Shown: positions 36,984 to 60,576 of the stretch, piece after piece | How positions within the stretch are numbered: position 1 is the stretch's first letter | How the letters are laid out: every line of letters starts with the position of its first letter | From: Polaribacter haliotis | GTDB lineage: Bacteria > Bacteroidota > Bacteroidia > Flavobacteriales > Flavobacteriaceae | Direction of reading: 5' to 3' | DNA length: 64,000 bases | Assembly (NCBI RefSeq): GCF_014784055.1 | Contig: NZ_CP061813.1 | Location: 211,501 to 275,500, forward strand | Position numbers and translations under genes: made by a program | The notes under the pieces: generated by a model | Told to the model about the DNA's origin: nothing | Database searches by the model: none | What the model saw: the letters and a program-made list of their open reading frames with translations, nothing else

Positions 36984-37019
36984 CTTTTTTTATCAAATAT
37001 AAAAATTAAAAACCAACTA

Positions 37020-37053
37020 CGTCATGTTTTGACGAACCCACATTAGACCTTTG
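37020..37053 (+). promoter_or_regulatory. WYL operator A and -7 region
   Basis: CGTCA-tgttt-TGACG-AACC (37020-37038) is a perfect 5-bp inverted repeat with a 5-nt spacer plus a conserved AACC. TTTG of the -7 box follows 11 nt later (37050-37053). It sits between the divergent WYL and HIRAN genes and could control both. Confidence 0.75.
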
Positions 37054-37080
37054 TAAAAGAATCTTAAAAACAAAAATAAA

Positions 37081-37407
37081 ATGAAAAGAGATTATTTTTT
37101 ACGATTTGCTATTGCTGGCTTTTCTTATTACGAAGGTGCAATTGCATTCAACAAATTAAAAATTGGTAAAAAGCTAAAACTGAAAAGAGAGCCTAGAAAT
37201 AAATATGATAAGCACGCTGTTGCATTGTACAGAAAAGGCTTAAAATTAGGTTACATTCCAAGAGATAAAAACAGACATCTTTCTTTACTTCTTAAAAACG
37301 GAGGTGTAAAATTTGATGCAAGAGTTCAAAAAGTAAATGAAAACGAACATCCAGAAATTCAAGTTGAAGTAATTTTGTATTTACTTACTCCTAAAAAAGA
37401 AAGTTAA
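37081..37407 (+). CDS. HIRAN-domain protein
   Basis: A 108-residue protein made almost entirely of a HIRAN domain. It has FAIAGFSYYEGAIAFNKLKI, then LKLKREPRNKYDKHAVALY and LGYIPRDKNRHLSLLL, the latter two being the family signatures. HIRAN domains bind DNA ends or damaged and stalled DNA and usually sit in helicases; stand-alone ones occur in prokaryotic accessory loci. It is first in the WYL-controlled plus-strand cluster, under operator A, and its stop lies 3 bp before the next start. A role as the DNA-sensing part of the cassette is an inference. Confidence 0.85.
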   Translation: MKRDYFLRFAIAGFSYYEGAIAFNKLKIGKKLKLKREPRNKYDKHAVALYRKGLKLGYIPRDKNRHLSLLLKNGGVKFDARVQKVNENEHPEIQVEVILYLLTPKKES

Positions 37408-37410
37408 AAC

Positions 37411-37623
37411 ATGACAGTAATCATATTTCTATTACTACTTTTTCTAATTCCTAAAACTATTGTTTTAGGAATTAGAGTTTTTTTGTATTTGGGAGTATTA
37501 GCCATTTTAGGATTATTAGGAATTCTTTTAATAACACTTATTATTTTAGGATTCTATTTTCCTGCAATCTTTTTAATTTTTCTTATTTGTTTTGTTGTCT
37601 ATTATGAGAAAAGAAAAGTCTAA
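37411..37623 (+). CDS. Small hydrophobic membrane protein
   Basis: A 70-residue protein that is nearly all hydrophobic. Two or three helices span MTVIIFLLLLFLIPKTIVLG, VFLYLGVLAILGLLGILLIT and FPAIFLIFLICFVVYYE, and a short basic tail (KRKV) faces the cytoplasm. It has no recognised family. It is translationally linked to the HIRAN gene (3-bp gap) and stands before the AAA-M41 gene, which has its own operator. In defence cassettes such small membrane proteins are often effectors that damage the membrane or anchors. Here it could also tether the protease, which unlike FtsH lacks its own membrane helix. Confidence 0.65.
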   Translation: MTVIIFLLLLFLIPKTIVLGIRVFLYLGVLAILGLLGILLITLIILGFYFPAIFLIFLICFVVYYEKRKV

Positions 37624-37661
37624 TCTCTAATTTTTAGATAAAATTATAAATTTATTTAATA

Positions 37662-37695
37662 CGTCACTAAATGGCGAACCTGTTTTAGTTCTTTG
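37662..37695 (+). promoter_or_regulatory. WYL operator B and -7 region
   Basis: CGTCA-ctaaa-TGGCG-AACC (37662-37680) matches operator A with one change in the right arm. TTTG follows 11 nt later (37692-37695). It lies 25 bp before the ATG of the AAA-M41 gene. Confidence 0.75.
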
Positions 37696-37719
37696 TATCA
37701 ACTTAAAAATAGATAAAAG

Positions 37720-39750: not shown

Positions 39751-39775
39751 TTTATTTTTTAATTTATTAGAACTA

Positions 39776-41161: not shown

Positions 41162-41183
41162 ATAAAAGTAAGTATTTGTACAC

Positions 41184-41206
41184 AAATTAACTTTGGTAGT
41201 TAATTT
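41184..41206 (+). terminator. Hairpin after the PcfJ-like gene
   Basis: Perfect 9-bp arms AAATTAACT and AGTTAATTT enclose TTGGT, 22 bp after the stop. The trailing T-run is short, so termination is likely only partial. A second AT-rich stem follows at about 41218-41240. Confidence 0.4.
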
Positions 41207-41252
41207 GCAATATTGCTTTAAGTTTTATAAAAAAACTTAATTATCAAAGAGG

Positions 41253-41286
41253 CGTCACAATTTGGCGTACCCAGATTTTACTTTTG
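41253..41286 (+). promoter_or_regulatory. WYL operator C and -7 box
   Basis: CGTCA-caatt-TGGCG-TACC (41253-41271) is followed 11 nt later by TTTG, within a perfect TACTTTTG -7 box (41279-41286). It lies 26 bp upstream of the zinc-binding miniprotein gene. Confidence 0.75.
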
Positions 41287-41311
41287 CATGATAATCAATT
41301 AAAAATAAAAA

Positions 41312-41497
41312 ATGAGTAAACTAACATGTAAGCATTGTGGAAAAGATTTTAGAGCAGGAAACCACTGCCTGCATAGTCCAACAAAAAAACATCAAGCATT
41401 AACAGATGGTGTAAATTGTGTTTGTTGCGGAAAACCATTTCACGTAGGAAGACATTGCACTCATAGTCCTACTAAAAAACACTTATTAGATGTTTAA
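41312..41497 (+). CDS. Miniprotein of two identical-pattern zinc-binding repeats
   Basis: A 61-residue protein that is an internal duplication. Both halves follow C-x2-C-G-K-x-F-x2-G-x-H-C-x-H-S-P-T-K-K-H: CKHCGKDFRAGNHC, then HSPTKKH; CVCCGKPFHVGRHC, then HSPTKKH. Each repeat offers three Cys and two or three His residues, enough to bind one zinc ion. The repeated HSPTKKH tail is basic and could contact nucleic acid. I know no named family. It has its own WYL operator and a perfect -7 box, so it belongs to the regulon. The following DUF2779 gene starts 48 bp later and may be on the same transcript. Confidence 0.8.
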   Translation: MSKLTCKHCGKDFRAGNHCLHSPTKKHQALTDGVNCVCCGKPFHVGRHCTHSPTKKHLLDV

Positions 41498-41545
41498 AAT
41501 TGGTTAACTTTAGTTACTTAATGTAAATTGTGAAAAAGAAAAAGT

Positions 41546-42886
41546 ATGTTATCAAAATCAAGATATTTAAAAGGATTAAAATGCACAAAAGCATTGTGGT
41601 TAAACAAGTTTAAAAAAGAAGAAGTTTTTTATTCTGACAGCACAAAAAGAGTATTTAGTCAAGGAAATACTGCTGGCGATTTAGCACAGCAATATTTCCC
41701 AAATGGACAACTGGCTTTGGTTTCTAATTATCCAGATTCCAAAGCTATTGCAAAAACTAAAGAATTAATTGCTTCAGGAGAAACCACAATTTACGAAGCT
41801 ACATTTGCAGCTAAAAATACTTTAGTTGCTTTAGATATTTTGCATAAAATTGATGGAAAATGGCATGCTTTTGAAGTGAAAAGCACTAATTCAACAAAAA
41901 ATGAACATATTAGAGATGCAGCTATTCAATATTATGTAATGACGAATTCTGGAATTGAAATTGAAGATATTTCTATAATGCATTTTGATAGAACCTATGT
42001 TAGAAATGGGGAATTAAACTCAAAGGAATTATTTACTTATGAAAGTGTAATCAATAGAATTCAACCTTTTTTAGCAGATATTCCTGCAAATATTGATCGT
42101 TTTTTAGCCGTTTATAAAAATGCAGAACCTACTGTTTTAATTGGTGCGCATTGTAAAGAACCTTATGAATGTGAGTTTGCTAATTATTGCCATCAATTAC
42201 AAGAAAATAAAGATTTAATTAATGTTGAGCAAACACCAAAATCAACGGACGTAAATTATAAAGATGATACAGAAATTCAGCATTTTCTAAATCAACATTC
42301 ATACCCAATTTATTCTTTCGATTTTGAAACCATTATGTATGGTATTCCTGAATTCAATCAATCTCGCCCTTATCAACAAATTCCTTTTCAATACAGTTTA
42401 CATTTCCAAAAAGATGCTAATACTGAACCAGAACACTTTGAGTTTTTGGGGAACGGAGTTGATGATCCAAGAGAAGAGTTAATTAAGAGTATGATTAAAA
42501 ATTTCGGCAAGAAAGGTTCTATTTTAGTCTATTCGATAACATTTGAGAGAACTCGAATTTATGAACTCATAAGAGATTTTCCTGAATATGAGAATGAATT
42601 AACAGCTATTGCCAATAGATTAGTAGATTTAGCACCTATTTATAGAAAACATATTAAAACAGAACAGACCCAGAAAAAATGGTCTTTAAAAGTAGTTTTG
42701 CCTACGTTTTTACCTCAATTTTCTTATGAAAATTTAGATATTCAAGACGGAATGGCAACAATGGATGTTTATAGAAACCTTTCGGATTTATCGAAATTAG
42801 ATCTAATAGAAGCTCGAAGGAATATGTTAGAGTATTGCAAGTTGGATACTTTGGCAGTTTTAGAACTTTATAGAATCTTAAATTAG
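41546..42886 (+). CDS. DUF2779 protein: Cas4-like nuclease fused to DEDD exonuclease-like domain
   Basis: A 446-residue protein. The N-terminal half is a PD-(D/E)XK nuclease of the Cas4/RecB type. C13 in GLKCTKALW, D97 in LVALDILHK, E110 and K112 in AFEVKST, and C203, C209 and C215 in HCKEPYECEFANYC form the nuclease core and a four-cysteine iron-sulfur site. The C-terminal half (about 245-446) opens with FDFETIMYG (D259, E261) and ends with EYCKLDTLAVLELY, the acidic motifs of an RNase H-like DEDD exonuclease, the region known as DUF2779. Both active sites look intact. The family is widespread and uncharacterised, with DNA processing as the natural inference. It lies in the plus-strand part of the island, 48 bp after the zinc miniprotein. 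Confidence 0.85.
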   Translation: MLSKSRYLKGLKCTKALWLNKFKKEEVFYSDSTKRVFSQGNTAGDLAQQYFPNGQLALVSNYPDSKAIAKTKELIASGETTIYEATFAAKNTLVALDILHKIDGKWHAFEVKSTNSTKNEHIRDAAIQYYVMTNSGIEIEDISIMHFDRTYVRNGELNSKELFTYESVINRIQPFLADIPANIDRFLAVYKNAEPTVLIGAHCKEPYECEFANYCHQLQENKDLINVEQTPKSTDVNYKDDTEIQHFLNQHSYPIYSFDFETIMYGIPEFNQSRPYQQIPFQYSLHFQKDANTEPEHFEFLGNGVDDPREELIKSMIKNFGKKGSILVYSITFERTRIYELIRDFPEYENELTAIANRLVDLAPIYRKHIKTEQTQKKWSLKVVLPTFLPQFSYENLDIQDGMATMDVYRNLSDLSKLDLIEARRNMLEYCKLDTLAVLELYRILN

Positions 42887-43476: not shown

Positions 43477-46173
43477 TTAACCAAATATTTTTACGTTTTC
43501 TCCAACATACACTTTAAAACTGCCTAAATAATCTCCATGTTTAATATATTCACCTAAAGGATTTTCAATATCTATATAGAAATTTTTTCTAACCATTTTT
43601 AGCCTACAAAAACCATATCGAGTGCTATAAATTATCGAATTGGTTAAGTATGATTCTAATTTTTTCGAAATAATTTGTTTTAATTTTAATTGCTCTTTGA
43701 AAGCTTTATAATAAATAAATAATTCACTATTTAAAACTTCTTTCATGTCCTCTGAAGCATTATTCAACTCGAATGTTTCTAAATTAAATAAATCAAACAT
43801 ATTTAGTAGTATAAGTTTCCTAAAATTGACAAAGTGTTTACTTCCTTTAATTTCAGATAAATATTTATTTGTTAAGATTATTAGTTTAACAGTTTCCTCT
43901 TTATTAATCTTTAATTCTTCAGTTTTAATCGACCATAAAATAGTGAGTAACCCTTTATTCAGAAAAGAAGCGATTAAAGAAGTGTCTAAATATGAATTTA
44001 TAAATTTATCATTGATAAAAGAATTAAAATTAGAAATAGGTTCAGTAGGAGTGGAAGTTATATTAACGTGTTTCTGATTTTTAACAAAATCTTCAAACAA
44101 GTGTAATTTTAAATATTCTATGTTATACAAAACCTCATTTCTAATCGCAGTAATTTGAGATTCCAATCGCACCAAACTAAATTTCTTTTCTAAAACACTT
44201 AATTCTTCAATATTTCTATATTTAATTTTTATCACAGAAATATCTTCAGAATAGCCTTCTTTCCAAAAATGCAATAGAATGTGGAATCCAATAAAAAGTG
44301 CTTTTATAGACCTTTCATCTTGCTGAATGTTCTTTTGAAACCTTTCATCAATTAAACAGGTTACAGATTTTACGGTATTTGCTATTTTATTTTGTATTCT
44401 TTGACCTTCTTTGGTGTTTATGCTTCTACGCTGGTTATCTAAATTAATTTGACTGTTTAGTCCATCATCTCCAGCTTCTATAGCTAATTCTTCATTATTG
44501 TTAGATAATTCATCTATTTGGGTATCTCTAATCTTTAAAACATCTAAAAACTCTTCTATCATAGATGTAATGTTATCTTTAGTAACAAATTCATCTATGC
44601 CTAACATAGCATTTGTGTTATATTCAGATTCAGTTATAACTTCTCCATCATCATCTTCATCATTATCACTTAAAGGAAGAATTGACATCGTTTTACTTTG
44701 GTTCTGAAACACTTTTTCAGAATCTAAAAAATCTAAAACGAGTTCATAGTTTAGAGTATTAAAAATATCTAAAAATTCAAAACTTTGTAATTTTGCTAAC
44801 CGCTCATCTGGATTTGATTTTTTGAGAATGGATGTTCTTTGAATTAAGGAAAAATTAGAAACTCTTTTTAGTGAATTTATTTCATAAAAGGCAAATTTGA
44901 AAACTGTTTCAACTTTTTTAAGTTTACATTTTAAAACTGACTTATCTATTAGAATATTTATTTGCTCTAGTATGTTTTCATTATTATCGAAGGTTTGTAA
45001 TAAAAATTTTTCTGATTTTATTTCCTTTAAGTTGATAATTAAGTTATCCTCTTCTAATTCGGAGTGTTTTATTTTTATTGAATTTGACTGCTTTACGTTA
45101 TCCTCTAAAGTTCTTTTAATAAATTGTGTTGGTTTTAAAAATCCAATTTTCGGAAAATTAATACCCAAATCTTTAAAAAAATCTGTTCTTTTTTTCGATT
45201 TTAAAATTATAATAGCTTCTTGATTTACAACAGCTCTTTTACTTATTCCAAACGCTTCTAAAGTAGCGTTTGCGCTTCCTAAAATAAAAATGGTTTCTTC
45301 GTCATATTCTATTTGTATAGCTTTTGCGTGTAATCTTTGAATACTATTTTTATTGTTTTTTTCGAGTACATCAGACCAATCAGAAAATTGTACAAAATTA
45401 TTTTTGAAATTATAGGGAAGTAATCCGTTTTCGGAATCCACAACGCAATGAATATTATTGGTTTTATATTCTTCTATTAACTTATCTATAAAAGCGCCAT
45501 CTGAATTATAGTAGGGAGCAATGATTTTTATAGATTGTGGGTTTTTGGGGAAATTTACAAACGTTCTATTATATAGAGATTCATCTTTGTTTGTATATGA
45601 AAAAAAATAAGAAATATCTTTAATAAAGAAATCTTTTGAAGTGTCTTCTTTTAGGTCTAATATCCAAGGTGCGTGTTGTACTACCCAAGAAATTTTTAAT
45701 TTATTAATTCCATGAGTGTAGTTTTTTAAATTTTCAATGAAACTCCACGCAGATTTAAAAATTGATTTCGTATCATTTTTATCTTTAGTATAATAGAATG
45801 ATGACCAAATTTCATCATTGTAAAGCATACCACTTGAAGTAATATTTCCACTTCCAACTGCTAAATAACCTTTTTCTTTTCCCGCTAAAAAAAGTGTTTT
45901 TGGGTGGAAAGCTCCAGATGTTTTTATGGGAGTTATACTGTAATTAGCTTTAAATTTTTTGTGAGAAGTGCCCAAATGAGAGGACAAATATTGCTCTAAC
46001 ATAGTTGCGTCTACAAATAGATTAATATTTGTTACACCTGCACTTCTTAATTTAGGTAGTATTAGATGCTCGAAAAAAACTAAATCTATACTATAGCTTG
46101 TAATTACACAGCTATGATATTTGTTTTTCCCTGTACCTATTAATTCTAAAATATTAGCTCTTTCAATTCTCAT
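43477..46173 (-). CDS. PLD-superfamily nuclease-like protein
   Basis: An 898-residue protein with two phospholipase D motifs. The first is H90-x-K92 in FHPKTLF with GSGN at 107-110. The second is H282-x-K284 in LHAKAIQ with GSAN at 299-302. Two HKD motifs form one active site, as in PLD-type nucleases of restriction and defence systems. The remaining 590 residues are helical, with a strongly acidic stretch near 505-520, and match nothing I recognise. It is the last gene of the restriction operon and overlaps the previous gene by 11 bp, so translation is coupled. It may be the effector nuclease of a two-gene module with that protein. Confidence 0.7.
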   Translation of the reverse strand: MRIERANILELIGTGKNKYHSCVITSYSIDLVFFEHLILPKLRSAGVTNINLFVDATMLEQYLSSHLGTSHKKFKANYSITPIKTSGAFHPKTLFLAGKEKGYLAVGSGNITSSGMLYNDEIWSSFYYTKDKNDTKSIFKSAWSFIENLKNYTHGINKLKISWVVQHAPWILDLKEDTSKDFFIKDISYFFSYTNKDESLYNRTFVNFPKNPQSIKIIAPYYNSDGAFIDKLIEEYKTNNIHCVVDSENGLLPYNFKNNFVQFSDWSDVLEKNNKNSIQRLHAKAIQIEYDEETIFILGSANATLEAFGISKRAVVNQEAIIILKSKKRTDFFKDLGINFPKIGFLKPTQFIKRTLEDNVKQSNSIKIKHSELEEDNLIINLKEIKSEKFLLQTFDNNENILEQINILIDKSVLKCKLKKVETVFKFAFYEINSLKRVSNFSLIQRTSILKKSNPDERLAKLQSFEFLDIFNTLNYELVLDFLDSEKVFQNQSKTMSILPLSDNDEDDDGEVITESEYNTNAMLGIDEFVTKDNITSMIEEFLDVLKIRDTQIDELSNNNEELAIEAGDDGLNSQINLDNQRRSINTKEGQRIQNKIANTVKSVTCLIDERFQKNIQQDERSIKALFIGFHILLHFWKEGYSEDISVIKIKYRNIEELSVLEKKFSLVRLESQITAIRNEVLYNIEYLKLHLFEDFVKNQKHVNITSTPTEPISNFNSFINDKFINSYLDTSLIASFLNKGLLTILWSIKTEELKINKEETVKLIILTNKYLSEIKGSKHFVNFRKLILLNMFDLFNLETFELNNASEDMKEVLNSELFIYYKAFKEQLKLKQIISKKLESYLTNSIIYSTRYGFCRLKMVRKNFYIDIENPLGEYIKHGDYLGSFKVYVGENVKIFG

Positions 46174-50700: not shown

Positions 50701-50831
50701 CTGTAGATTTCTGCATTTTCATTTACTGCATCTATAGAAATATTTTGGGCTTTTAATTCTTCTAAATTAGTACCTGTTAATATTTTTTCTATATATGCTT
50801 CTAATGCTTGTTCGTTTGTTTGGCTATGCAT
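47778..50831 (-). CDS. hsdR: Type I restriction endonuclease subunit R
   Basis: A 1017-residue HsdR. The N-terminal nuclease domain has D163 in EEIDLVFF and E177/K179 in MELKN, the D...ExK motif. The SF2 translocase follows, with Walker A AGSGKSN (329-335), DEAH at 442-445 in VIIDEAHSSQSG, and AFTATP as motif III. Later motifs include LTGFDQPKL and QTLSRLNRA. A helical C-terminal domain ends the protein. It translocates DNA and cuts unmethylated targets as part of the HsdR2M2S1 complex. It lies in the same operon as hsdM and hsdS but is separated from them by two extra genes (55563-56441 and 50835-55388), an unusual spread. Confidence 0.93.
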   Translation of the reverse strand: MHSQTNEQALEAYIEKILTGTNLEELKAQNISIDAVNENAEIYRTGKGYYIGQSANFNAQFAIDEQFFWSFLENTQKEELEKLQKQSDWKLKILNRFDRLVKKYGILYLLKKGLQVDDAHFTLFYQLPLASSSKTVKDNFEQNKFSVTRQLCYSVDNPREEIDLVFFLNGLPIVSMELKNHWTGQNARVHGQQQYKTQRDNKQPLLQFARCIVHFAVDTDEAYMTTKLDGNKTFFLPFNKGNKHGKGNPEVAKDEIGHRTNYLWNEVFTRESIANIIQHFVRLDGKKKDALQSKTLFFPRYHQMDVVRKIIKDASIKGVGETYLIQHSAGSGKSNSITWAAYQLIETYPANEKAAGNKGSTQPLFDSVIVVTDRRLLDKQIRDNIADFSEVKNIVSPAYSSKELRESLEQGKKIIITTIQKFPFIIDGIADLSEKRFAVIIDEAHSSQSGTAHDNMNRAMGTKVNEDEELDAQDKIINAMQSRKIRDNASYLAFTATPKPITLEKFGTKQEDGTFKPFHLYSMKQAIEEGFILDVLANYTTLKSYYEIEKSVDNNPFFDGAKAQKKLRAYVEQHQQTIHTKAEIILDHFIPNIVNKKKLKGKVKAMVITQSIASAIKYYKALQKILKEKGSPFKIAIAFSGTKEINGIEYSEAEMNGFPEKDTRHKFDEDAYRILVVANKYLTGFDQPKLTAMYVDKKLQGVLAVQTLSRLNRAATKLGKKTEDVFVLDFFNSSAEIKASFDPFYTATSLNEATDVNVLHELKEVLDDRGVYEWIEVEDFNIKFFNKEKAEVIGKIIERAAERFKHELELEDDEKADFKIKAKQFVKIYGQMASIIDFEVLNWEKLFWFLKFLIPKLPINDTEIDALDELLNSVDLSTYGLERVRLNEAIELDADETEVDPQNPNPRGAHGNGEEHDPLDLIVSSFNERWFQNWEVTPEDQRVKFITLTKSIQAHEDFQSKVLENGDEQNKNLAFKKILDEVMSKQRKQELDLYRLYAKDDAFYKAFFDTMKRMSQI

Positions 50832-50834
50832 AGT

Positions 50835-53800
50835 TTATTTATTATTAACGATTTCTAAATGAACTAAATATTCATTTACAGTTGTTTTATATTTTGGATT
50901 TGAAAAGAAGTCATAAATTGGAATAATGATATTTTTATCTTTTACTAACCATATTTCATAATTTTCTTTTTTGCTTAAGCCAAAATCGTATTCTGATTTT
51001 GATAAATGAAAACTACCAAAGTCAAAAGATTTTACTTCAACATACTTTACATCTCCATTTTCATTTGTATACTGAATATCATAATGATAATATGGATCAA
51101 ATATAGCTACAGGGTCAATATCCTTGTAATTGTTATTTATAAAATAATCTAACACAACTTTTTCTGCCACATCACCTTTCTTTTTTTTCTTTTTATCATC
51201 ATCAAAAGAAGGTATGTAAACACCTCTACCACCTTTATTCTTTGACTCAGAAACCTCTCTTGATTTTAAGGTATTACTATTTAAAATTGTAGGTTGAATA
51301 TTTTCTTCTAAAGAATTTGATTCAAGTATTTTATCCTCTTCACTCTTCTGAACCCGTAGATTTTCTTTTAATTCTACTTTGATGTTTTCTATTGCAGATT
51401 CAAAAAATATTAAACTCATTAGCTTTAAATTAGTTTCAATTAACCTAACTTCTTCTGAATTAAAATGCTTTAGATTTAAAATTCTTTTTTTGTCTAAATT
51501 TAAAATTTCAACTAATTCTAAATTGGTATACTTTTCTTCGATATATTCCTTAACAATTTCATCCAAACTAAAATCAAATTGAAATTTCAACTGATTTGCT
51601 TTTTCTGAAGTGAATTTATCTTTGTTTTTATATTTACCTATTAAGCTTAAATACTTCGATTGTTCATTGATACTTAAATTTTCTAAAGATTTCCATAAAG
51701 AAGATTTAATTAAACTAGATTTTTTTTCAATTGCTTGCTCAATTTTTTTATAGTTTAAATTATATAAATCAATTTTATCAAAAGCCTTCTTATTGTAGGT
51801 TGTTATATCAATATTAATAGTGTCAAATAATTTTTCAATAATCTTATAATTCTCAATAGTATTTATAAAAGAATAACCAATATTCGGCAATAACTCTAGG
51901 TTCAAAACTTCTAAAATCCGAGAATAATCGTTCTTATCTATGTCTGAAGAATTCCAGTCTCTTATTTCGTAGATATTTTTCCAAAAACTAGTCTTTTCAT
52001 TAGCTTGTCCTAATAGAATTTTAGCTTCATCTAGTATACTTAACCCAAACTTTTGCTCAATTAAATGAGTATTGTAATTTTCGGTATTTCTTATTAAATA
52101 TCTAAAATCATCTTTCTCGTTATTAGTATCAAAGGTGTTGGCTAATATCTCTGCAAAAACATCTGCTAATTTAGGTTCTGAAATTATTTTATCAATATCT
52201 GTCCCGTTGACAGCTATTAAATAGTGATTATTACCTTTGTAATAAAACTCAAAATTATCGATTACAAATAAATTGTTCTCAATTGAACACTCTATTTTAT
52301 CGCATAATTCTATGATGATATTTTTTAGTTTTGAAGCATCAGCTTCTTTGCTTTTCTGTGTATTTAAACTATCTAATCTAAAAGAAAGCACAAAAGGTTT
52401 AAGGTTTTTAAAAATCTCATTAAAATCAGCCGATAAGTTTTTATTTATAATAGCCTCTTCCAATTGTGAATCTAAATCTTTAATATCATTTATATTAAAT
52501 AACTTTATTGCAGTTGCACCACCAGATCTAGGCGGGTAATTTAAAATAGGGTATTTATTCGTAAGGTTTTCTGGTAACTTTATATTATCACTAAAGTAAA
52601 CTTCTTCTTGCTTATATAAACTATAAACTCCGTTACTTTTTGCAAATAGACTTACTGGTTTAGTTAATTCTTTATTATTTTTTCTGTAATGTTTATATAC
52701 TTTTTGATAAAAATCCTGACTTCCTTTACCTTCTTTTTCTTTGGCAAATTTGTTTAATTTTTCAAAGAGATTTGTAACGTATTCAATAGACAAATCATTA
52801 AAATCTTCTTTTGCATTTAATAAAAGTAAACTACTGTTAATCTTAGTTTTACTTATTTCATTTTCTGTAAATAAAGAATGTGTGTAGTTTACTCTTATAT
52901 CGTTTAGCCACTCAGTTTTATCCTCAATTAGTTGATTATGAAACTGAAATTTACTATTTGATAATATTTTATATTTAATATAAGAAGGCTTACTTGGTAT
53001 GCTATAAAAATGTCGATAGTTAACTTCTCTTATTTTATACGTATTCTCGTTTTCTTCATCGTTAAGTTGTTTCTTGAGCTTAGCATCTACATTAATCCAC
53101 AGTAATAATTTTTCTATAGAAATTTGATTTAATATTTTTTCAAAATCTACTATTTCCTTATAAGAAATAATATAAGCTCTATAATCTATATTTGAGTTAT
53201 TATAGAATTGGACATACTGCATAAAGCTATCCAAACCACTTGAAATTGAAACTTGTGAGTTATATTTTGCATAAATATTAGTTTGTAACCATACCAAAAA
53301 CTCTTCAAATTTGTTTATATCAAAATCTTCTGCATTAGTAGCTATACCTAATTTTTCTGGTGAGGCAATATACTCTGGTTGGTCGTATATGCTTTCAAAG
53401 ATTTCTTCGGTTAATTTCCCTTTTGGGTAATATGCTGACAAATACAAGTCTTTACAAATTGCTATATCTCCAGTTTTATTAATTGTCCGAACAGAAACTT
53501 CTTGACTAAATTCACTTACGTCATCGGTTTGTAAAAAATTATGGTACAAACACCTATTCATTTCCTGAATTAATGAAAAACTATTTGCTCCAGTAAGTTT
53601 TAACTTTTTATTAGTTTCAGATATAATTTTTAAAGCTAACCTATTAGGTTCATATTCATTTATATTGCAATTATCATTAAGTTGTTGCATTACAAAACGA
53701 CTTCTACCTAAACTTTTCTTGCCGTCGTAACCAAATAAATTTGAAAGTTTGTGATACAATTTTTCATTCAAAAATTGAATTTTGGTGTCGTCAGGTCTTA

Positions 53801-55388
53801 TTAAATTTTTGTCTGTCGTTTTAGGTGTAAAAATATATTCGTCTGCTTTAATTGGATTTTCAGCTTCATCTACTAAAAAATCAAATTGTAATGAAGGAAA
53901 AGCTTTTACTATTTCATAAATAAAAAGCGCTCTATTTTCAATACTTAATCTTGTCTTTGAAATCGTATTAACAATAGTTATAATATTTGTAATAGAACCG
54001 TTGAGATTATAACTTAATAAATTCACCCTTTCTTCAACAGAGATAAGATGGTTAGGGAAGAAACGCTCTAAAGACAGTCTTTGAATCATTTTACTAAATG
54101 AATCACTAATGTATATAGCATCACTTTTTTTATAGTAGTTATTGTCGACGCAAGGAAATAATTTTTCTGATAAAATTTTACTTTCTAAAATTTCAAAAAA
54201 AGCATTTAACGACGTATTGGTTTTATTATGTTTTAAAAACAATAAAGGTTTCCAACTTGCTTTAATTGTTTCTTTAGAAAAATGCTTAGCTGTATTTATT
54301 ATTAATGTTGCTAATCTTTTTAGAATAAATTCATTTCTACTGATACCATTCTCATTTTTATCGTTTGAGATTCTTTTCCTGTTCTGGTCTAATTCAAAGG
54401 TACCGTGTATTAAAAAAGGAAACGCTAATGGCTCTTCTGTTAAAAAATAAGAAAACAATCTATTTACATTATCAGAGAAATCATTTTGGAAAGCTAATTT
54501 AAGTTGATAAAAATCTTTGTTAGTGGATTGTTTATTTTGGTATTTATCATCTAACGGATTTGATTCTTCTACAATATTCCAAGTTTTATTATTTATGGTA
54601 ATTACAGAGGTTGGTGCTACAGTAGCAGGAATAATTTCTAATTCCTGTTTTTGATTAATTAAAATATCTTTTTGATTCTTGAAACCTTCAAACTTTACGT
54701 GTTCTATTGTATTTAAAAACAATAAAGTTTCTTCTGTAATACTTTCTACTTGCTCCACAATATTATCATAAAAACCATCTTTATAAGATATTTCTATGGT
54801 AGTTGTGTAACCGTTATCCAACTGTTTTTCAGTTATATCAGGATACGACAGTAAGGGTAATGGTACAACATTTTCTACTAAACCTCTTTCTTGCAACAAC
54901 GCCAAACGATTTTCTTTAGAAGGGTGTAAAGTGTGAAACGCTTTTTCAATAAAATGAGGCGCATATTTTAAACATATACCATTACTATAAATATTAATTT
55001 CATTTGCCCAATTTATTATAGAACGAAAACCAAGTCCTTTATTACCAATAAATTTACCTGAAACTTTAGAAGATAAACTGGCGTAAAATAATGAGTTATA
55101 CCCTTTTTCTGAAAAGGGTGTTCCAATATTAGAAATACTAAAAGTATTACGCTCTTTATTAATTTTAATTAGAACTTCTGGTGAATTTTCATCATCACAG
55201 TTTTGAAATAATTCTAATACTTGTCTACCATTATACCCTTTGTTAGTGTCGCTTTCTGTTTTGAAAGCACTAAACATTAATTGAGGATCTTTGTAATTAG
55301 AAAGAACTTTAGTTCGGAGCTTAATTAACTTATCCTTTAGAATGCTTGTTTCATAATTTAAAGTTGTAGTATTTTCCATACTTAACAA
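50835..55388 (-). CDS. Giant HATPase (sacsin-like) protein with C-terminal DUF3883 domain
   Basis: A 1517-residue protein. The N-terminus is a GHKL/Hsp90-type ATPase of the sacsin kind: E59-x-x-x-N63 in LELFQNCDD, N87-x-G in ISNIGTPF and GNKGLGFRS (115-123). A long helical middle follows. The last 120 residues form a DUF3883 domain. Its region GDVAEKVVLDYF, YYHYDIQY and KYVEVKSFD resembles a PD-(D/E)XK nuclease core (D in YDIQY, E-V-K). HATPase-DUF3883 proteins are recurrent in defence islands and resemble a conformational switch coupled to a nuclease. Its stop lies 3 bp before hsdR, so it is part of the restriction operon rather than an independent system. A 174-bp spacer precedes it, in which I see no clear promoter. 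Confidence 0.75.
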   Translation of the reverse strand: MLSMENTTTLNYETSILKDKLIKLRTKVLSNYKDPQLMFSAFKTESDTNKGYNGRQVLELFQNCDDENSPEVLIKINKERNTFSISNIGTPFSEKGYNSLFYASLSSKVSGKFIGNKGLGFRSIINWANEINIYSNGICLKYAPHFIEKAFHTLHPSKENRLALLQERGLVENVVPLPLLSYPDITEKQLDNGYTTTIEISYKDGFYDNIVEQVESITEETLLFLNTIEHVKFEGFKNQKDILINQKQELEIIPATVAPTSVITINNKTWNIVEESNPLDDKYQNKQSTNKDFYQLKLAFQNDFSDNVNRLFSYFLTEEPLAFPFLIHGTFELDQNRKRISNDKNENGISRNEFILKRLATLIINTAKHFSKETIKASWKPLLFLKHNKTNTSLNAFFEILESKILSEKLFPCVDNNYYKKSDAIYISDSFSKMIQRLSLERFFPNHLISVEERVNLLSYNLNGSITNIITIVNTISKTRLSIENRALFIYEIVKAFPSLQFDFLVDEAENPIKADEYIFTPKTTDKNLIRPDDTKIQFLNEKLYHKLSNLFGYDGKKSLGRSRFVMQQLNDNCNINEYEPNRLALKIISETNKKLKLTGANSFSLIQEMNRCLYHNFLQTDDVSEFSQEVSVRTINKTGDIAICKDLYLSAYYPKGKLTEEIFESIYDQPEYIASPEKLGIATNAEDFDINKFEEFLVWLQTNIYAKYNSQVSISSGLDSFMQYVQFYNNSNIDYRAYIISYKEIVDFEKILNQISIEKLLLWINVDAKLKKQLNDEENENTYKIREVNYRHFYSIPSKPSYIKYKILSNSKFQFHNQLIEDKTEWLNDIRVNYTHSLFTENEISKTKINSSLLLLNAKEDFNDLSIEYVTNLFEKLNKFAKEKEGKGSQDFYQKVYKHYRKNNKELTKPVSLFAKSNGVYSLYKQEEVYFSDNIKLPENLTNKYPILNYPPRSGGATAIKLFNINDIKDLDSQLEEAIINKNLSADFNEIFKNLKPFVLSFRLDSLNTQKSKEADASKLKNIIIELCDKIECSIENNLFVIDNFEFYYKGNNHYLIAVNGTDIDKIISEPKLADVFAEILANTFDTNNEKDDFRYLIRNTENYNTHLIEQKFGLSILDEAKILLGQANEKTSFWKNIYEIRDWNSSDIDKNDYSRILEVLNLELLPNIGYSFINTIENYKIIEKLFDTINIDITTYNKKAFDKIDLYNLNYKKIEQAIEKKSSLIKSSLWKSLENLSINEQSKYLSLIGKYKNKDKFTSEKANQLKFQFDFSLDEIVKEYIEEKYTNLELVEILNLDKKRILNLKHFNSEEVRLIETNLKLMSLIFFESAIENIKVELKENLRVQKSEEDKILESNSLEENIQPTILNSNTLKSREVSESKNKGGRGVYIPSFDDDKKKKKKGDVAEKVVLDYFINNNYKDIDPVAIFDPYYHYDIQYTNENGDVKYVEVKSFDFGSFHLSKSEYDFGLSKKENYEIWLVKDKNIIIPIYDFFSNPKYKTTVNEYLVHLEIVNNK

Positions 55389-55562
55389 GACTTTACATTA
55401 ATAACTAACTTTCCATTTTTCATTCTTTTTTTATATTTTTTTAACATTTCAATTTTCTGCTTTTTCTTTTCTAATAACTTTACTTTTTACTATAGCTGTA
55501 GTCAATACCCAATTCTAAACAAATTATTTTATTGCGACTTATGAGTATCAGTTTATAATTTT

Positions 55563-56441
55563 TTAATCAATATTATCAGATCTATTTATAATAATTTTAA
55601 ATGTCGGATTCCATCCAGCCTTTTGAGAAGCCAGTGCTATTTTATTGTCATTATTAATTTCTATATCTTTATTTGAATCTTTGTCCTTTTCAATATCTAG
55701 AGAATCGTCTTCTAAAGAAACTTCTGAAATAGGTAAGAATTTAGAATTGTAATTATCTATTTCTGCTTTAGCATATAGTGTGCCATCTGCTTTATCCAAC
55801 ATACAACAAACTAAAGTTCTCCATGGTTCACTATTATGTGGATGTATATCTTCATAAGTAGGATTTACAAATCTTGTTCCTCTTGCATTACGTGTTAACC
55901 CTAATTTCTCAATAATTGGAACAGAAACCAATGAACAACCTAATTGATCTTCTGTGTAAGGTCTATTACAAGAATCGTTTTTTTTAAAGTTATAATCTTC
56001 TGATCTGTATTTACCATTATAAAGAAGGTAGAAGGCTGTGCAACCGCTGGCAGCTTCTAAAAGTTTTAATTTATCCCATTGGTATGTTGGATTAGTTTGA
56101 CTATAACCGTCTCTTAATGTATTATATCTATTATTTGCTTTTAATATTTTTGCTTGCAATGCAAACCATCGATATTGGTTTTTAGTAGTTTCTACAAATA
56201 CATCAATATCACTTCCATACTTATTCTCGTCATAACCAGGTTTAGCAGAGACATCAAAATTGCCATTTCGATATTTACTAAATCTTAAAATATCTACTAA
56301 AATATCATAAGTAATTCCTTCTTCTCTTAAATTTACATTTACATCATGCGCATCAGTTATTCTTTTCCAAACTTTACTTGCGATTTCTTCGAATAACTCA
56401 CATCTACCTGAATCTATTAAATTTTTTTCTGCTTCTGTCAT
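55563..56441 (-). CDS. Putative nuclease-like protein between hsdS and the HATPase gene
   Basis: A 292-residue protein. The central part, GSDIDVFVETTK then RWFALQAKILK, has the D-x-x-x-E...QxK spacing of PD-(D/E)XK-fold proteins with the less common Q-x-K ending. Upstream, EEGITYDILVDILRF resembles the lead-in helix of such folds. It recalls an uncharacterised family I know as DUF6615, but I cannot confirm that. The C-terminal 70 residues are acidic and low in structure. It starts 1 bp after the hsdS stop, so it is translated from the hsd mRNA. It may be an additional cleavage subunit. Confidence 0.55.
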   Translation of the reverse strand: MTEAEKNLIDSGRCELFEEIASKVWKRITDAHDVNVNLREEGITYDILVDILRFSKYRNGNFDVSAKPGYDENKYGSDIDVFVETTKNQYRWFALQAKILKANNRYNTLRDGYSQTNPTYQWDKLKLLEAASGCTAFYLLYNGKYRSEDYNFKKNDSCNRPYTEDQLGCSLVSVPIIEKLGLTRNARGTRFVNPTYEDIHPHNSEPWRTLVCCMLDKADGTLYAKAEIDNYNSKFLPISEVSLEDDSLDIEKDKDSNKDIEINNDNKIALASQKAGWNPTFKIIINRSDNID

Positions 56442-56442
56442 A

Positions 56443-57711
56443 TTAACAAACCTTTACCTTACCAGTTACAACCCCATTTATTAAACTACTTTTATATTCT
56501 TTTAACTTGGCAATCTCTTCTTGTTTTAAACCAATAGCAGTTTCTATTTTTTGTGATGCGTTTTCTATATATGCCGAAATTTCTTTTTGTTCTGAAATAG
56601 TTGGTAGTAAAACAGATAAATTATTTAAAAATTTTCCGTTTACGTGAGGTATTCCCATTCCAATAGTATTACCTCTAATTTCCCTTTCTAAAACCGTTGA
56701 ATAATACCATGCAAAGTTTTCATTAATTCCTTTGAAAATTATATGTGCAACAGTAGATGATATTACTCCTTTTCTACTTTTTATAAACTCACCAGAATTT
56801 GAGCCATCCCACAATAAAAGAGTTTCACCAGAATTTATTACAATAGCATCTTTATCGGAAACCCATTGATTTTCTATTCCGCCACGCAAATATTCCATAC
56901 TCATATATGGAGGTAAGTTATTATAAGGATTTGATACAATTTTATTAGGTAATTTCCCTTTATTCGCTTTAGCTATAAACTTAAATCGTTTTAATTCCCA
57001 ATGCGTTGGAATATTACCAATCCAAACTACACCAGAATCTTTAAAAGCAACATTTTTATCTAAACCTTTAGTAACAGCCTTGTGTATTAAAATTTGTTTA
57101 CGTTCTTTTAATAATTGTATTTGTTGTTCTTTTATGGCAATTGCATCTTCTATTTTAGTTGTTTTATCATCAAGAAAGCTTACAATGATTTTCTGTTCAT
57201 CAAAACTTGGGTAAGGAATTACAACATCTCCAAATTTATCAAAGTATAATCGAAGCCTCATATCCATAATTCCCCGAGAGTGTTTTTTGAGTTCTGAAAT
57301 ACAAGCTGAATTTCTAAATAAATAATGATAAAAATTACTTTCGATATCAACTTTAGCTCTTAAAATATCATATGCTGGACTTGTGACACCATTATAATTT
57401 GATACACCAATTGCTCCCATCCAAGCAAGTAATTTGTTTACAATAATATCTCCTTTTTTAACTAACCAATAACCATCAGTAGTAGATGCTTTATTTCCCT
57501 TTTCTTTTAATTCCTTTCGAGGTTTTACACCAATTTCTGTGTAAACTGATAATAGTTCAAAATCATTATTATTTGGTGCAGGTTCAACAACTAATCGAAA
57601 TATATTCTTTACACGAGTAGCTTCCCAGTGTTCAGGGATTTCTCCCAACCATTCTACACCAGAATCCTTGTAGCCTTTATAACGTTGTGTTTTGTTTTTT
57701 ACTTTAAACAT
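56443..57711 (-). CDS. hsdS: Type I restriction-modification specificity subunit S
   Basis: A 422-residue HsdS with two half-site modules. Each starts with the same signature (SGVEWLGEIPEHWEATRVKN at about 17-36, SGVVWIGNIPTHWELKRFKF at about 218-237). Each then has a target-recognition domain and a central coiled coil (IVSFLDDKTTKIEDAI and KEISAYIENASQKIETAI). The two TRDs differ in sequence, so the recognition site should be bipartite and asymmetric. Its start overlaps the hsdM stop by one base. No second hsdS or inverted repeat is nearby, so shuffling of specificity is not indicated in this window. Confidence 0.92.
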   Translation of the reverse strand: MFKVKNKTQRYKGYKDSGVEWLGEIPEHWEATRVKNIFRLVVEPAPNNNDFELLSVYTEIGVKPRKELKEKGNKASTTDGYWLVKKGDIIVNKLLAWMGAIGVSNYNGVTSPAYDILRAKVDIESNFYHYLFRNSACISELKKHSRGIMDMRLRLYFDKFGDVVIPYPSFDEQKIIVSFLDDKTTKIEDAIAIKEQQIQLLKERKQILIHKAVTKGLDKNVAFKDSGVVWIGNIPTHWELKRFKFIAKANKGKLPNKIVSNPYNNLPPYMSMEYLRGGIENQWVSDKDAIVINSGETLLLWDGSNSGEFIKSRKGVISSTVAHIIFKGINENFAWYYSTVLEREIRGNTIGMGIPHVNGKFLNNLSVLLPTISEQKEISAYIENASQKIETAIGLKQEEIAKLKEYKSSLINGVVTGKVKVC

Positions 57712-60095
57712 TATACAATATTTAAAATTTCTGCAATTAAACCATCACTTTTTGTTTCTAAATCTATAATATCTTTAGTTACTTCTTCTATATTTCGCAA
57801 AGGTTTGTGTTTGTAGAAGTATTTATTAAAGCTAATTTCGTATCCAATTTTGGTGGCATTTAAATTTATCCAAGCTTCATTTACGTGTGGTTTTACCTCC
57901 CTTAAAAAGTAACTATGAATGTTATCTTTTAGTGGCACATTTTCGGTGTCTCTTATATCGCTTTCTGTTTCGTAAACAATGTATTCGTCTTTTTTTAGAG
58001 ACCTTTCGACTGCGCTCAAGGTGACATTTTGAATTTTACCGAAATAGCCAAAGTCGGCTAAATCTTCTTTTTTGCAATCTAAATGTTTTAAGAGTTTTGA
58101 TAATTTATCTCCTGAAAGTTTTTCTATTTTTTTAATTACTTTTTCTGCATCTGCACAGTACCAGCTAACTGCATTTAAAATGGCTTTTTTATCGCTTGCA
58201 GAAATGTTTAATTTTTGTGCTTTAATTTCATCGTCAACTTCTTTTCTAAATTCATTAAAATTGTCGTACAATTTATCTCCAAATACATTTTGTAATGCCT
58301 TTGCACTATTTACCAAACGTAAATGTTTCTGCCAAGTATCTATTTTAATCAGTTTCTTTTTATTGGTAGAAGATAAATTCAATTCGTTTTTTTCACACCA
58401 TTCTATAATTTCTTTTTGGTGTTTATTGATACCTGTGTAAACGTCTTCTCCAAAAGTTTCAAATGCATATTGCATCGGTTCTTGTAAAACTCTATCAAAA
58501 CGTAAGGTTTCTATTCGTTCTGCTGTAAATTGTGCTTTTAATCTTTTGGGTCTTTCTATGGTTGCTTTGTAATAGCCAAAATCGGTATTGTCAAAAACTT
58601 TAGCTGCGATTTCGTGATTGCCTTCTTTTTCGGCTACACTCATTTTTGTGTAGGTTTCTACAATTTTAGTAATGTGTTTTGGAGTGAATTCGCAGTTTTT
58701 ATTTCCTAAATTTTTACGTAATCTTCTGTACAATTGTCCTGCATCTATCAATTGTACTTTTCCTTTTCTATGTGTTGGTTTATTATTACTTAATAACCAG
58801 ATATAGGTTGTAATGCCAGTGTTGTAAAATAAATTATTTGGTAATTGTACAACGGCTTCTAACCAATCGTTTTCTATAATATATCTTCTAATATTACTTT
58901 CGCCACTACCAGCATCTCCAGTAAATAAGCTACTTCCATTGTGTACACTTGCAATTCTTGTTCCTGCAGCACTTTGTTGTAAAGATTTCATTTTAGAAAC
59001 CATTTCCATTAAGAATAACAATTGTCCATCTGAAGAACGTGGAATTGCATCTGCATCTTCTTCTACATTCCAATAATTATTCAGTTTTATTTGAAAACGA
59101 GGGTCTATAACATCTTTACCATCTTTAATATATTTTTGTTCGCTACTCCAAGATTTTCCATAAGGCGGATTTGAGAGCATAAAGTCAAACGTTTGTCCTG
59201 CAAATTGATCTGTAGATAGGGTAGAACCCACTTTAATGTTTTCGGGATTATTTCCCTTAATCATCATGTCACTTTTACAAATGGCGTACGTTTCGTCGTT
59301 TATTTCTTTCCCAAAAAGATAAACATCGCCCATTGCTTTTATCAAGCCTTTTTCATCTTTTATAAAATTCTGACTTTCTGTTAACATTCCACCAGAACCA
59401 CAAGCAGGATCATAAATAGTCATAACTGGTGGTAAATTATCTTTTATTGGATCGAAAATAATGTGTGTCATTAAATCGATTACTTCACGAGGCGTAAAGT
59501 GTTCTCCAGCTTCTTCATTATTTTCTTCGTTGAATTTCCGAATTAATTCTTCAAAAACATACCCCATTCCTAAATTAGAAAGCGCTGGCAATTTTCTTCC
59601 TTCTGGATCTAATTTCTCAAAAGGGGTTAAGTTGATATTTGAGGATGTAAACTTTTCTAAAACATCTAACAAAACATCTTTATTCGCCATATGACGAATT
59701 TGATTTCTTAATTTAAACTTCTCTATTATTTCTTTAACGTTCGGGCTAAAACCGTTTAAATAATCTTCAAAATTTGCTTGTAATATTTGTTGACTATTGG
59801 TTGCAGTATCTTTTAATTTTTGAAGTGTCCAGGTACTTGTGTTATAAAAAACGTAGCCAGATGCTTCTCGCAAACCAGATTCGTCCCATTCTGTAAAACC
59901 TGCTTCATCTCTTTGAAAAGCTAATTCTTTTAAAACAGCTTCTTTTGTAGGTTCTAAAAGTGCATCTAATCTACGTAATACAATCATTGGCAAAATAACA
60001 TCTCTGTATTTACCTCGAACATAAACGTCTCGTAAACAATCGTCTGCAATAGACCAAATAAAGGATACTAATTTATTGTGGGATGATTTATTCAT
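57711..60095 (-). CDS. hsdM: Type I restriction-modification methyltransferase subunit M
   Basis: A 794-residue N6-adenine methyltransferase. It contains the N-terminal helical HsdM_N domain, then FTPREVIDLM (200-209), the SAM-binding DPACGSGGML (229-238) and the catalytic NPPYG (309-313). The C-terminal 250 residues extend beyond the usual 500-540-residue HsdM. They include a segment, EISFNKYFYKHKPLRNIEE, that recurs in long HsdM forms of Bacteroidota. It modifies the target adenines set by HsdS. The acidic 120-residue gene precedes it by 58 bp. Confidence 0.93.
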   Translation of the reverse strand: MNKSSHNKLVSFIWSIADDCLRDVYVRGKYRDVILPMIVLRRLDALLEPTKEAVLKELAFQRDEAGFTEWDESGLREASGYVFYNTSTWTLQKLKDTATNSQQILQANFEDYLNGFSPNVKEIIEKFKLRNQIRHMANKDVLLDVLEKFTSSNINLTPFEKLDPEGRKLPALSNLGMGYVFEELIRKFNEENNEEAGEHFTPREVIDLMTHIIFDPIKDNLPPVMTIYDPACGSGGMLTESQNFIKDEKGLIKAMGDVYLFGKEINDETYAICKSDMMIKGNNPENIKVGSTLSTDQFAGQTFDFMLSNPPYGKSWSSEQKYIKDGKDVIDPRFQIKLNNYWNVEEDADAIPRSSDGQLLFLMEMVSKMKSLQQSAAGTRIASVHNGSSLFTGDAGSGESNIRRYIIENDWLEAVVQLPNNLFYNTGITTYIWLLSNNKPTHRKGKVQLIDAGQLYRRLRKNLGNKNCEFTPKHITKIVETYTKMSVAEKEGNHEIAAKVFDNTDFGYYKATIERPKRLKAQFTAERIETLRFDRVLQEPMQYAFETFGEDVYTGINKHQKEIIEWCEKNELNLSSTNKKKLIKIDTWQKHLRLVNSAKALQNVFGDKLYDNFNEFRKEVDDEIKAQKLNISASDKKAILNAVSWYCADAEKVIKKIEKLSGDKLSKLLKHLDCKKEDLADFGYFGKIQNVTLSAVERSLKKDEYIVYETESDIRDTENVPLKDNIHSYFLREVKPHVNEAWINLNATKIGYEISFNKYFYKHKPLRNIEEVTKDIIDLETKSDGLIAEILNIV

Positions 60096-60153
60096 GTATT
60101 TTTATCTTAATTGGGTAGTGTGTAATATATAACTCTGTTGTTGAACAGAATAT

Positions 60154-60516
60154 TTAATCTTTTCCAAATACGCTATCGTAATTCATGGAATCTTCATCGA
60201 AATCGTCATCATGTCTATTAGGAAACATATAATCTAAAATTTCTTCCTTATCAAAAGGCTGTGTTTTCTTTATAAACCTTTTAATTTCAATTACTAATTT
60301 CTCTAAAGCATCAAGTGTTATGGATTCAGGAACTTCTGTAGTTGGAATTAAATTATATTTTGGATGATCAAAAACCCTTTCAGAAACATCACTTATTTCT
60401 TGTTCAATTTCTTCAATAAGATAGTGGAATTCTGTATCGTCAAAATTAGTATCATCTTCTTTTACTTTTTCTTTAAGTTCTTTGAAAGATTGTAAGTGGT
60501 ACTCAATGGTAGTCAT
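60154..60516 (-). CDS. Acidic leader protein of the restriction operon
   Basis: A 120-residue protein with 33 acidic and 14 basic residues by my count, ending in a D-rich tail (HDDDFDEDSMNYDS). No family is recognised. It is mostly helical, with FHYLIEEIEQEISDVSERVF and LDALEKLVIEIKRFIKK. It is the first gene of the hsd operon, with a WYL operator (60558-60576) and -7 box just upstream. A charge pattern like this is found in DNA-mimic anti-restriction proteins. If so it could hold the restriction complex in check until needed, but no structure supports this beyond composition and place. Confidence 0.6.
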   Translation of the reverse strand: MTTIEYHLQSFKELKEKVKEDDTNFDDTEFHYLIEEIEQEISDVSERVFDHPKYNLIPTTEVPESITLDALEKLVIEIKRFIKKTQPFDKEEILDYMFPNRHDDDFDEDSMNYDSVFGKD

Positions 60517-60541
60517 ATAATTATATATTTATACATTTCTA

Positions 60542-60576
60542 CAAAAATATAAGCATAGGTTCGACAAATAGTGACG
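60542..60576 (-). promoter_or_regulatory. WYL operator D and -7 box of the restriction operon
   Basis: On the minus strand: CGTCA-ctatt-TGTCG-AACC (60576 down to 60558), then 12 nt and TTTG, inside TATTTTTG (60549-60542), a perfect TAnnTTTG. It lies 26 bp upstream of the acidic leader gene and has the layout of operators A-C, linking the restriction operon to the WYL regulon. Confidence 0.75.

Follow-up and report, generated by a model that had tools for sequence, protein, structure and literature searches.

Control over the timing of restriction and defence genes is known for few systems. The question of how such genes may be switched together is raised by a 64,000-nucleotide stretch of the genome of the marine bacterium Polaribacter haliotis (contig NZ_CP061813.1, positions 211,501 to 275,500), referred to here as the window. 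In an island within it, the gene of a WYL-domain regulator lies near a complete type I restriction-modification (RM) set, consisting of HsdM, HsdS and HsdR, and one palindromic site recurs in front of several gene groups. Does a single protein govern all of these, and does it activate or repress them? The answer favoured here, with slightly better than even confidence, is that a DriD-type WYL regulator switches four island units together via CGWC-N7-GWCG operators. The units switched in common would be a HIRAN gene with that of a hydrophobic small protein; a fusion of a Clp-like AAA+ domain with an M41 peptidase (AAA-M41) together with a PcfJ-like protein; a zinc miniprotein with the DUF2779 and GIY-YIG-like proteins; and the leader protein p120 with the type I RM genes.

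The motif CGTCA-N5-TGNCG-WACC, to which a preliminary description of the window had drawn attention, has four exact matches in the window, at 37020, 37662 and 41253 on the forward strand and at 60558-60576 on the reverse strand. Shuffling of the window (n=100) never gave four matches, the shuffle mean being 0.00. It was observed through a scan of the whole genome (3,800,626 bases, single contig) that the exact matches are the four island sites only, and no copy with one mismatch was found elsewhere in the 3.8 Mb. When up to two mismatches were allowed, there were 15 forward and 18 reverse matches, the four sites included, against 12 and 15 for the reversed control; the two-mismatch matches are background at control level. 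The TTTG of a -7 box follows the motif end after 11, 11, 11 and 12 nt for operators 1-4, the boxes being TAgaccTTTG, TAgttcTTTG, TActTTTG and TAtattTTTG. The earlier observation of a recurrent site at a near-fixed promoter distance holds.

What is conserved in relatives is a 15-bp core, CGHCA-N5-TGDCG, while the trailing WACC, described as part of the motif, proved to be local and is absent from them as a conserved element. The genome contains six copies of the core, of which four are in the island and two outside it; the control gives three. Neither of the two outside copies has a TTTG at the island spacing, and one of them lies inside a 796-codon open frame. By these sequence scans, the regulon coincides with the island. 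The full WACC motif was also tried as a family-wide marker and was rejected, with 27 matches (22 genomes) against 30 for the reversed control among 397 family genomes; the matches outside the P. haliotis genome are mostly chance. The clear exception is L029, where the site lies between the WYL and AAA-M41 genes. As a separate observation, genome G053 (L020, L031) carries two full-motif copies with TTTG at 15 nt and identical downstream sequence, possibly a repeat; a WYL gene of the clade considered below is present on a different contig of this genome.

Which gene does the operator accompany? AAA-M41 relatives were collected from the best 80 of 125 named loci, 8 viral loci and 6 genomes among the 397 of the family, and duplicates were removed before counting (L049, nearly the same as the window; G038 = L066, G308 = L055 and G174 = L084). 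A WYL gene was assigned to the clade of the window protein at a profile score of at least 200, a line that was set after the scores were seen. The core stands beside the AAA-M41 start in 19 of the 22 loci with a clade WYL gene and in 3 of the 69 without. The three clade loci lacking an exact core there (L061, L070, L079) have one-mismatch versions by eye. The three loci with an operator and no clade WYL gene are L053, L068 and L081, and the contigs of the first two end 2.5-5 kb upstream. No operator was found at the AAA-M41 loci that have a WYL gene of another clade (L062, L064, L065), nor at those where a WYL gene was not found (L071-L075).

The same dependence is seen from the side of the regulator. 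For 29 of the 35 WYL genes of the clade an operator lies within 1.5 kb; for the lower-scoring WYL genes the count is 2 of 14. A search for the clade in the 397 family genomes found 19 members, of which 13 are in genomes without AAA-M41 at the search threshold; in 10 of these 13 an operator is present within 1.5 kb (the three lacking it are L172-L174), which rules out AAA-M41 as the carrier of the operator. The 36 chosen loci (0.53 Mb) contain 61 sites, whereas the reversed control pattern matches only twice in them and 50 block shuffles gave 1.3 on average (maximum 5). The 15-bp core follows one WYL clade in Bacteroidota.

A further link between the protein and the site is provided by the recognition helix. 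The WYL protein has an N-terminal winged helix-turn-helix (HTH) domain, with Arg42 in the recognition helix, followed by the WYL domain (120-189) and the WCX domain (220-296). A second operator type, TATCA-N5-TGATA, was observed 15 nt from TTTG beside two more distant WYL proteins (L082, L084/G174). It lies directly before AAA-M41 in L082, and before a gene between WYL and AAA-M41 in L084/G174. Among 49 aligned WYL proteins, only those of L082 and L084 have alanine at the position of Arg42, and all clade members covering this region have arginine. In the BrxR-DNA structure, the arginine of the SRQQ motif (Arg38) reads half-site positions 6 and 7 (PMC9122589), and it is at positions 6/7 that CG changes to TA in L082/L084. 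This association between loss of the arginine and loss of CG consists of two cases and was not sought beforehand. The SRQQ DNA-contact motif of the BrxR_Acin group is not present in the window protein, which has SRTL at 41-44 with the arginine kept; BrxR of E. fergusonii is likewise described as diverged at this motif (PMC9122589). Arg42 would read the outer CG of each half-site, and the two cases would represent a natural specificity change for WYL-DNA recognition. Exact CGAC-N7-GTCG cores are found in G255, G014, L055/G308, L161, L162 and L193. A site of the TATCA-N5-TGATA type is also present in L080, at a greater distance from its -7 box and on a contig that yielded no WYL gene.

It could be argued that some other DNA-binding protein, with its gene elsewhere, uses the operators and that the WYL gene is merely nearby. 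CG-rich palindromes are recognised by other proteins too, and binding of the operators by the WYL protein is proposed from sequence. Nevertheless, the operator follows the WYL clade with and without AAA-M41, and the site differs beside the two WYL proteins that lost the recognition arginine, so that this is the least probable of the explanations considered here. Sequence comparison establishes that the sites exist, that they are confined to the island and linked to the WYL clade, and that they keep a promoter register; direct binding by the WYL protein is likely.

The position of the sites on the promoters bears on the mode of action. TTTG begins exactly 15 nt past 45 of the 61 sites (36 loci, L172-L174 being left out of this count) and at 14-16 nt past 48, with about 1.1 expected per offset. 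Eighteen of the 45 are situated before AAA-M41 (both L076 sites counted), and the remaining ones precede HIRAN, zinc miniprotein, DUF2779, PDDEXK_4 nuclease, DnaB-like helicase, p120 and WYL genes. In L165 and L167 it is the WYL gene itself that is preceded by an operator with this spacing. With the centre of TAnnTTTG taken as -7, the operator would reach from about -37 to -22; a palindrome overlapping promoter elements, which is a trait of BrxR/CapW, is present, with the operator across the -33 region. The half-sites are also oriented: over the 45 sites, the third base is G in the promoter-side half in 28 and the matching C is found in the far half in 4, the discordant sites standing at 25 against 1.

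The preliminary description had placed the regulator with the WYL proteins of the BrxR/CapW kind, which repress defence islands. The link between WYL protein and operator stood, whereas register, orientation, profile and structure favour DriD-type activation. A BrxR/CapW-type repressor over the -33 region of the same regulon, released by a ligand (possibly ssDNA, single-stranded DNA) so that the defence genes come on, is a real possibility that we rate clearly below activation. Such a repressor needs neither a single-base register nor an orientation, yet 45 of the 61 sites share one spacing and the half-sites are oriented. The operators of BrxR and CapW sit at differing promoter positions between systems, and the profile of the window protein is closer to DriD and PafB.

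The known WYL systems allow a closer comparison. DriD of Caulobacter crescentus is a WYL activator triggered by ssDNA, with the consensus ATACGAC-N7-GTCGTAT (PMC12340889). Its sites keep a single distance from the -10 element and its DNA-binding domains flank the -35 (PMC12340889). Asymmetric binding positions DriD on polymerase, and one target operon is divergent from driD (PMC12340889). The window protein shares with it the HTH-WYL-WCX order and the CGAC-N7-GTCG operator core (here CGWC-N7-GWCG); further shared features are the fixed distance from operator to -10/-7, the placement over -35/-33, the oriented site and the divergent first target. It differs in that structural alignments are only 14-18% identical, in that the DriD targets are didA, bapE, recJ and dnaG rather than restriction, defence and protease genes, and in the Bacteroidota promoters; activation and ssDNA binding would apply here by analogy with DriD. 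PafBC of mycobacteria is similarly a WYL activator with a fixed promoter site, acting near -26 and switched on by ssDNA (PMC11804915; another paper gives -24). Unlike the proposed protein, it is a heterodimer that does not bind promoters without polymerase. BrxR and CapW, of BREX and CBASS, resemble the window protein in domain plan, palindromic operator (the BrxR half-sites are 5 nt apart) and phage-defence control. They are different in that BrxR_Efer and CapW repress, and they are farther by profile and fold. Their sites vary by system, being over -35, over -10 or downstream of -10, and have no common promoter register, while here four separate units share one operator. Another small regulator, RptR, is comparable in its conserved site and in its type I RM operon, which has an accessory system inside it; it is a repressor from Gammaproteobacteria with the site TAGCTA, and in the available part of the source it is not described as a WYL protein.

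The protein itself was compared at two levels. By profile, it is nearer PafB/DriD than BrxR/CapW. Its AlphaFold model (pLDDT 81) structurally matches DriD, BrxR, CapW and PafBC, with a modest lead for DriD. Both the HTH-WYL-WCX order with the overall fold of DriD-type activators and the wHTH-WYL-WCX fold of the BrxR/CapW repressors are present in it. Owing to the register, the orientation, the profile and this modest lead in fold, DriD-type activation is put first and BrxR/CapW-type repression second.

Several points speak against this preference and the regulon as a whole. Sixteen of the 61 sites lack the 15-nt spacing, 13 of them lacking even 14-16 nt, and the clade members L172-L174 have no recognisable operator. 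Many of the sites are orthologous promoters (18 of 45 before AAA-M41), so the counts are not independent, and a fixed register could also arise from promoters moving as ready-made pieces. In G308, the operator on the WYL side is situated just past a -7-like box of the WYL gene, a placement compatible with negative autoregulation or with no autoregulation at all. Rmsd values are large (7-12 A) for the full-length structural matches, probably owing to turned domains. The three-helix bundle by which DriD contacts polymerase maps to the worst part of the model, with pLDDT below 50 at 92-102; helices are predicted at 78-104 and 119-130 around it. Out of four mutated PafB residues concerned with ssDNA, two have a counterpart by manual mapping (Y165, R177) and two do not. 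Finally, the two halves of the BrxR_Acin site are likewise separated by 5 nt and lie over -35 (PMC9122589), so that geometry by itself leaves a BrxR-like mode possible.

The following mechanism is proposed for DriD-type activation. The WYL protein would be a DriD-type transcription factor, probably a homodimer, binding CGWC-N7-GWCG operators over the -33 region of Bacteroidota promoters. Single-stranded DNA from DNA damage or phage replication would bind the WYL domain and cause activation, with the protein holding RNA polymerase on promoters that have no good -33 element. By analogy with the known activators, this ssDNA-triggered holding of the polymerase is moderately likely.

What, then, is being regulated? 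Four operator-led units had been described, and these remain, with the amendment that the third unit, given as the zinc miniprotein, probably includes the DUF2779 and GIY-YIG-like genes and that the fourth starts with p120. That each run of genes forms one transcript is suggested by spacing and strand. The features are collected in Table 1. The GIY-YIG-like gene has homologues in G255, G308, G397 and G443 and is a recurrent cassette gene, and in L051 the DUF2779 homologue has an operator in front.

Table 1. Genes and promoter elements of the island, in window coordinates
Feature	Position	Strand	Remarks
WYL regulator, 302 aa	36075..36983	-	Pfam WYL and WCX
Operator 1, CGTCATGTTTTGACG	37020..37034	+	between the divergent WYL and HIRAN genes; same letters in sister species G397
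-7 box of the HIRAN promoter, TAGACCTTTG	37044..37053	+	TTTG begins 15 nt past operator 1
HIRAN-domain protein, 108 aa	37081..37407	+	Pfam HIRAN 1.8e-21
Hydrophobic small protein, 70 aa	37411..37623	+	same direction as HIRAN; retained in G397
Operator 2, CGTCACTAAATGGCG	37662..37676	+	counterpart in G397: CGCCACTAAATGGCG
TTTG of -7 box	37692..37695	+	15 nt past operator 2
AAA+ (Clp-like)/M41 zinc peptidase fusion (HESGH), 676 aa	37720..39750	+	Pfam Peptidase_M41, ClpB_D2-small, AAA
PcfJ-like protein, 461 aa	39776..41161	+	Pfam PcfJ 2.3e-10; same direction as AAA-M41
Operator 3, CGTCACAATTTGGCG	41253..41267	+	motif match
TTTG of -7 box	41283..41286	+	15 nt past operator 3
Zinc miniprotein (by eye), 61 aa, two Cys/His-rich repeats	41312..41497	+	no Pfam match above cut-off
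DUF2779 protein, weak Cas4-like similarity	41546..42886	+	Pfam DUF2779 1.3e-36; recurs beside AAA-M41
GIY-YIG-like protein, 185 aa	42909..43466	+	Pfam GIY-YIG 0.0043, below cut-off
PLD-like protein, part similar to PADLOC ZacB	43477..46173	-	profile and PADLOC
Protein weakly similar to PADLOC ZacA	46163..47746	-	PADLOC
HsdR, type I restriction subunit	47778..50831	-	profile match
NOV_C protein, 1517 aa, PADLOC name TmtA	50835..55388	-	profile match
DUF6615-like protein within RM operon	55563..56441	-	match below cut-off
HsdS, type I specificity subunit	56443..57711	-	profile match
HsdM, type I modification subunit	57711..60095	-	profile match
p120, small acidic leader protein, 120 aa	60154..60516	-	conserved tail LDxMFPNRHDDDFDEDSMxYDSVFGxD
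TTTG of -7 box	60542..60545	-	16 nt past operator 4
Operator 4, CGTCACTATTTGTCG	60562..60576	-	motif match

The restriction cargo is interchangeable between species, with the WYL/operator pair as the constant part. In the sister species G397, the WYL, HIRAN, 70-aa and AAA-M41 genes are retained at 95.6% DNA identity with both operators; the DUF2779 and GIY-YIG-like genes are 71% and 51% identical, and neither PcfJ nor the zinc miniprotein had a match in the 40 kb fetched of this island. Here a p120 relative stands behind its own operator (15 nt) and leads two GmrSD genes, and the type I RM genes, located apart, belong to a different kind. Similarly, a 214-aa gene and a GmrSD_N gene in G487 have an operator and p120 on their upstream side, and the operator in L050 stands at the head of a group made up of a p120-like protein, an AAA_5 gene and a gene for a McrBC component. 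Operators also precede an Mrr_cat gene in L053, GmrSD genes in L052 and a PDDEXK_4 gene in L055, with no TTTG at 15 nt from the L052 and L053 sites. A fixed cassette is ruled out by the missing PcfJ and zinc miniprotein matches in G397, and by the HIRAN gene, for which phmmer gave a homologue only in the near-identical L049 among the loci compared. The simplest reading of these sequences is that promoter and operator, often with p120, would be the constant piece, behind which restriction enzymes are swapped.

The p120 family was traced separately. A search gave 29 hits counting itself, of which 12 were aligned and share the conserved acidic tail. p120 is rare, being present in 6 of the 97 genomes of the genus and in 2 of the 207 of the class, and few loci support its link with restriction. 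As an independent test of the regulon, the class-wide search with the p120 alignment alone (207 genomes) found one genome beyond P. haliotis (L193). There the p120-like gene is preceded by CGACATATTGTGTCG at the 15-nt spacing, and the gene after it encodes a WYL protein, a more distant member scoring 138 against the clade profile, below the line of 200. The operator lies directly before p120 in five of nine p120 loci (window, G397, G487, L050 and G658), and those without it in front are G423, G443 (a match without the tail), G308/L055 and L058. In G423, the genes downstream of p120 are those of another type I RM set, which lacks the operator.

The standing of the RM operon within the regulon has to be considered at this point. 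None of 12 hsdM relatives in the family genomes, eight of them 72-85% identical, has an operator in the upstream 600 nt or p120 within 1.5 kb, which rules them out as natural regulon targets; the RM operon of P. haliotis was probably recruited, since these relatives elsewhere stand without the operator. It may be supposed that the AAA-M41, HIRAN and zinc units are the regulon proper and that the RM site is a recent or weakly functional capture, the RM genes being in effect constitutive. The lack of the operator in all 12 relatives agrees with this, as do the presence of a clade WYL gene on another contig of G308, one of those hsdM genomes, and the 16-nt spacing of operator 4. On the other hand, operator 4 has retained every invariant base, along with the p120 leader and a -7 box close to the register; the order of operator and then p120 recurs in G397, G487, L050 and G658; and a 16-nt spacing is also seen before AAA-M41 in L056 and L069. 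This explanation is improbable, if marginally less so than that of another DNA-binding protein, and the fourth unit is retained in the preferred regulon. The hsdM genes near AAA-M41 in L054 and L058 were not used, as pattern scans gave no operator nearby.

AAA-M41 is similar to FtsH/Yme1 and to ClpB-type AAA+ proteins in its M41 peptidase and ClpB-type small domain, by profile, and differs from them in joining a Clp-type AAA to M41. Its Walker A and HExxH motifs are invariant in an alignment of the window protein and four relatives. No match was found in PADLOC 2.0, and the fold prediction was set aside as too poor (pLDDT 53). It is present in 3 of 97 genus genomes, those of P. haliotis itself, G397 and G473. 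Among named records, Polaribacter sp. MSW5 (L049) comes closest. Over 30 kb, identity between G473 and the window is 99.96%, and G473 carries all four operators, with AAA-M41 frame-shifted; frame breaks in L155/L156 (G473) apparently also affect the PLD and 1517-aa genes and are perhaps assembly errors. Eight viral contigs of 70-413 kb (L129-L136, five of them above 300 kb) encode AAA-M41 relatives that are 30-35% identical in the best segment; in the fetched stretches they have no clade WYL gene, and no operator stands beside AAA-M41. The gene after AAA-M41 in Xanthomarina (G038, L066), in the same orientation, encodes a UmuD-like peptidase (L032, 7085-7534), which is a hint of a damage-response setting. 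The neighbourhood of AAA-M41 with restriction enzymes and p120 suggests that restriction may be under proteolytic control. Outside the units, a 190-aa protein near the WYL gene (34903-35475) has the DnaJ C-terminal domain as its sole Pfam match, and a 137-aa gene upstream of p120 (60718-61131) is related to genes next to p120 in G423 and has a second copy in G473.

A literature search, whose scope left out bioRxiv preprints and most subscription journals, gave no paper on this operator, the WYL clade or AAA-M41 with PcfJ, and the available parts of PMC10924106 and PMC12839542 contain nothing on them. DriD drives a damage response independent of SOS in Caulobacter crescentus. In the P. haliotis genome no LexA was found above the curated cut-off, a partial match without the N-terminal part being UmuD-like; for this one genome, an SOS-independent response would make sense. 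A bolder extension, which we regard as unlikely, is a LexA-independent damage regulon of Bacteroidota. In it, a DriD-type WYL protein would induce a captured restriction enzyme (type I, GmrSD, McrBC or Mrr) along with the AAA+/M41 protease and p120; the tail of p120 would serve as a docking or degradation signal, and the protease would tune restriction at times of damage to the host's own DNA, as a form of restriction alleviation built into the system.

An operator that can be read from sequence and is tied to one WYL clade in many Bacteroidota would predict co-regulated defence operons and the geometry of their promoters. It also highlights the p120 restriction leaders and the AAA-M41 proteases as candidate families. 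DriD and PafBC both respond to ssDNA, and a CapW structure with ssDNA bound to it points the same way; should this also be true of the regulator here, the response to DNA damage would be joined to restriction. The presence of the site and its regulator in related bacteria, next to other restriction enzymes, is a sign of a common switch, which may be responsive to DNA damage.

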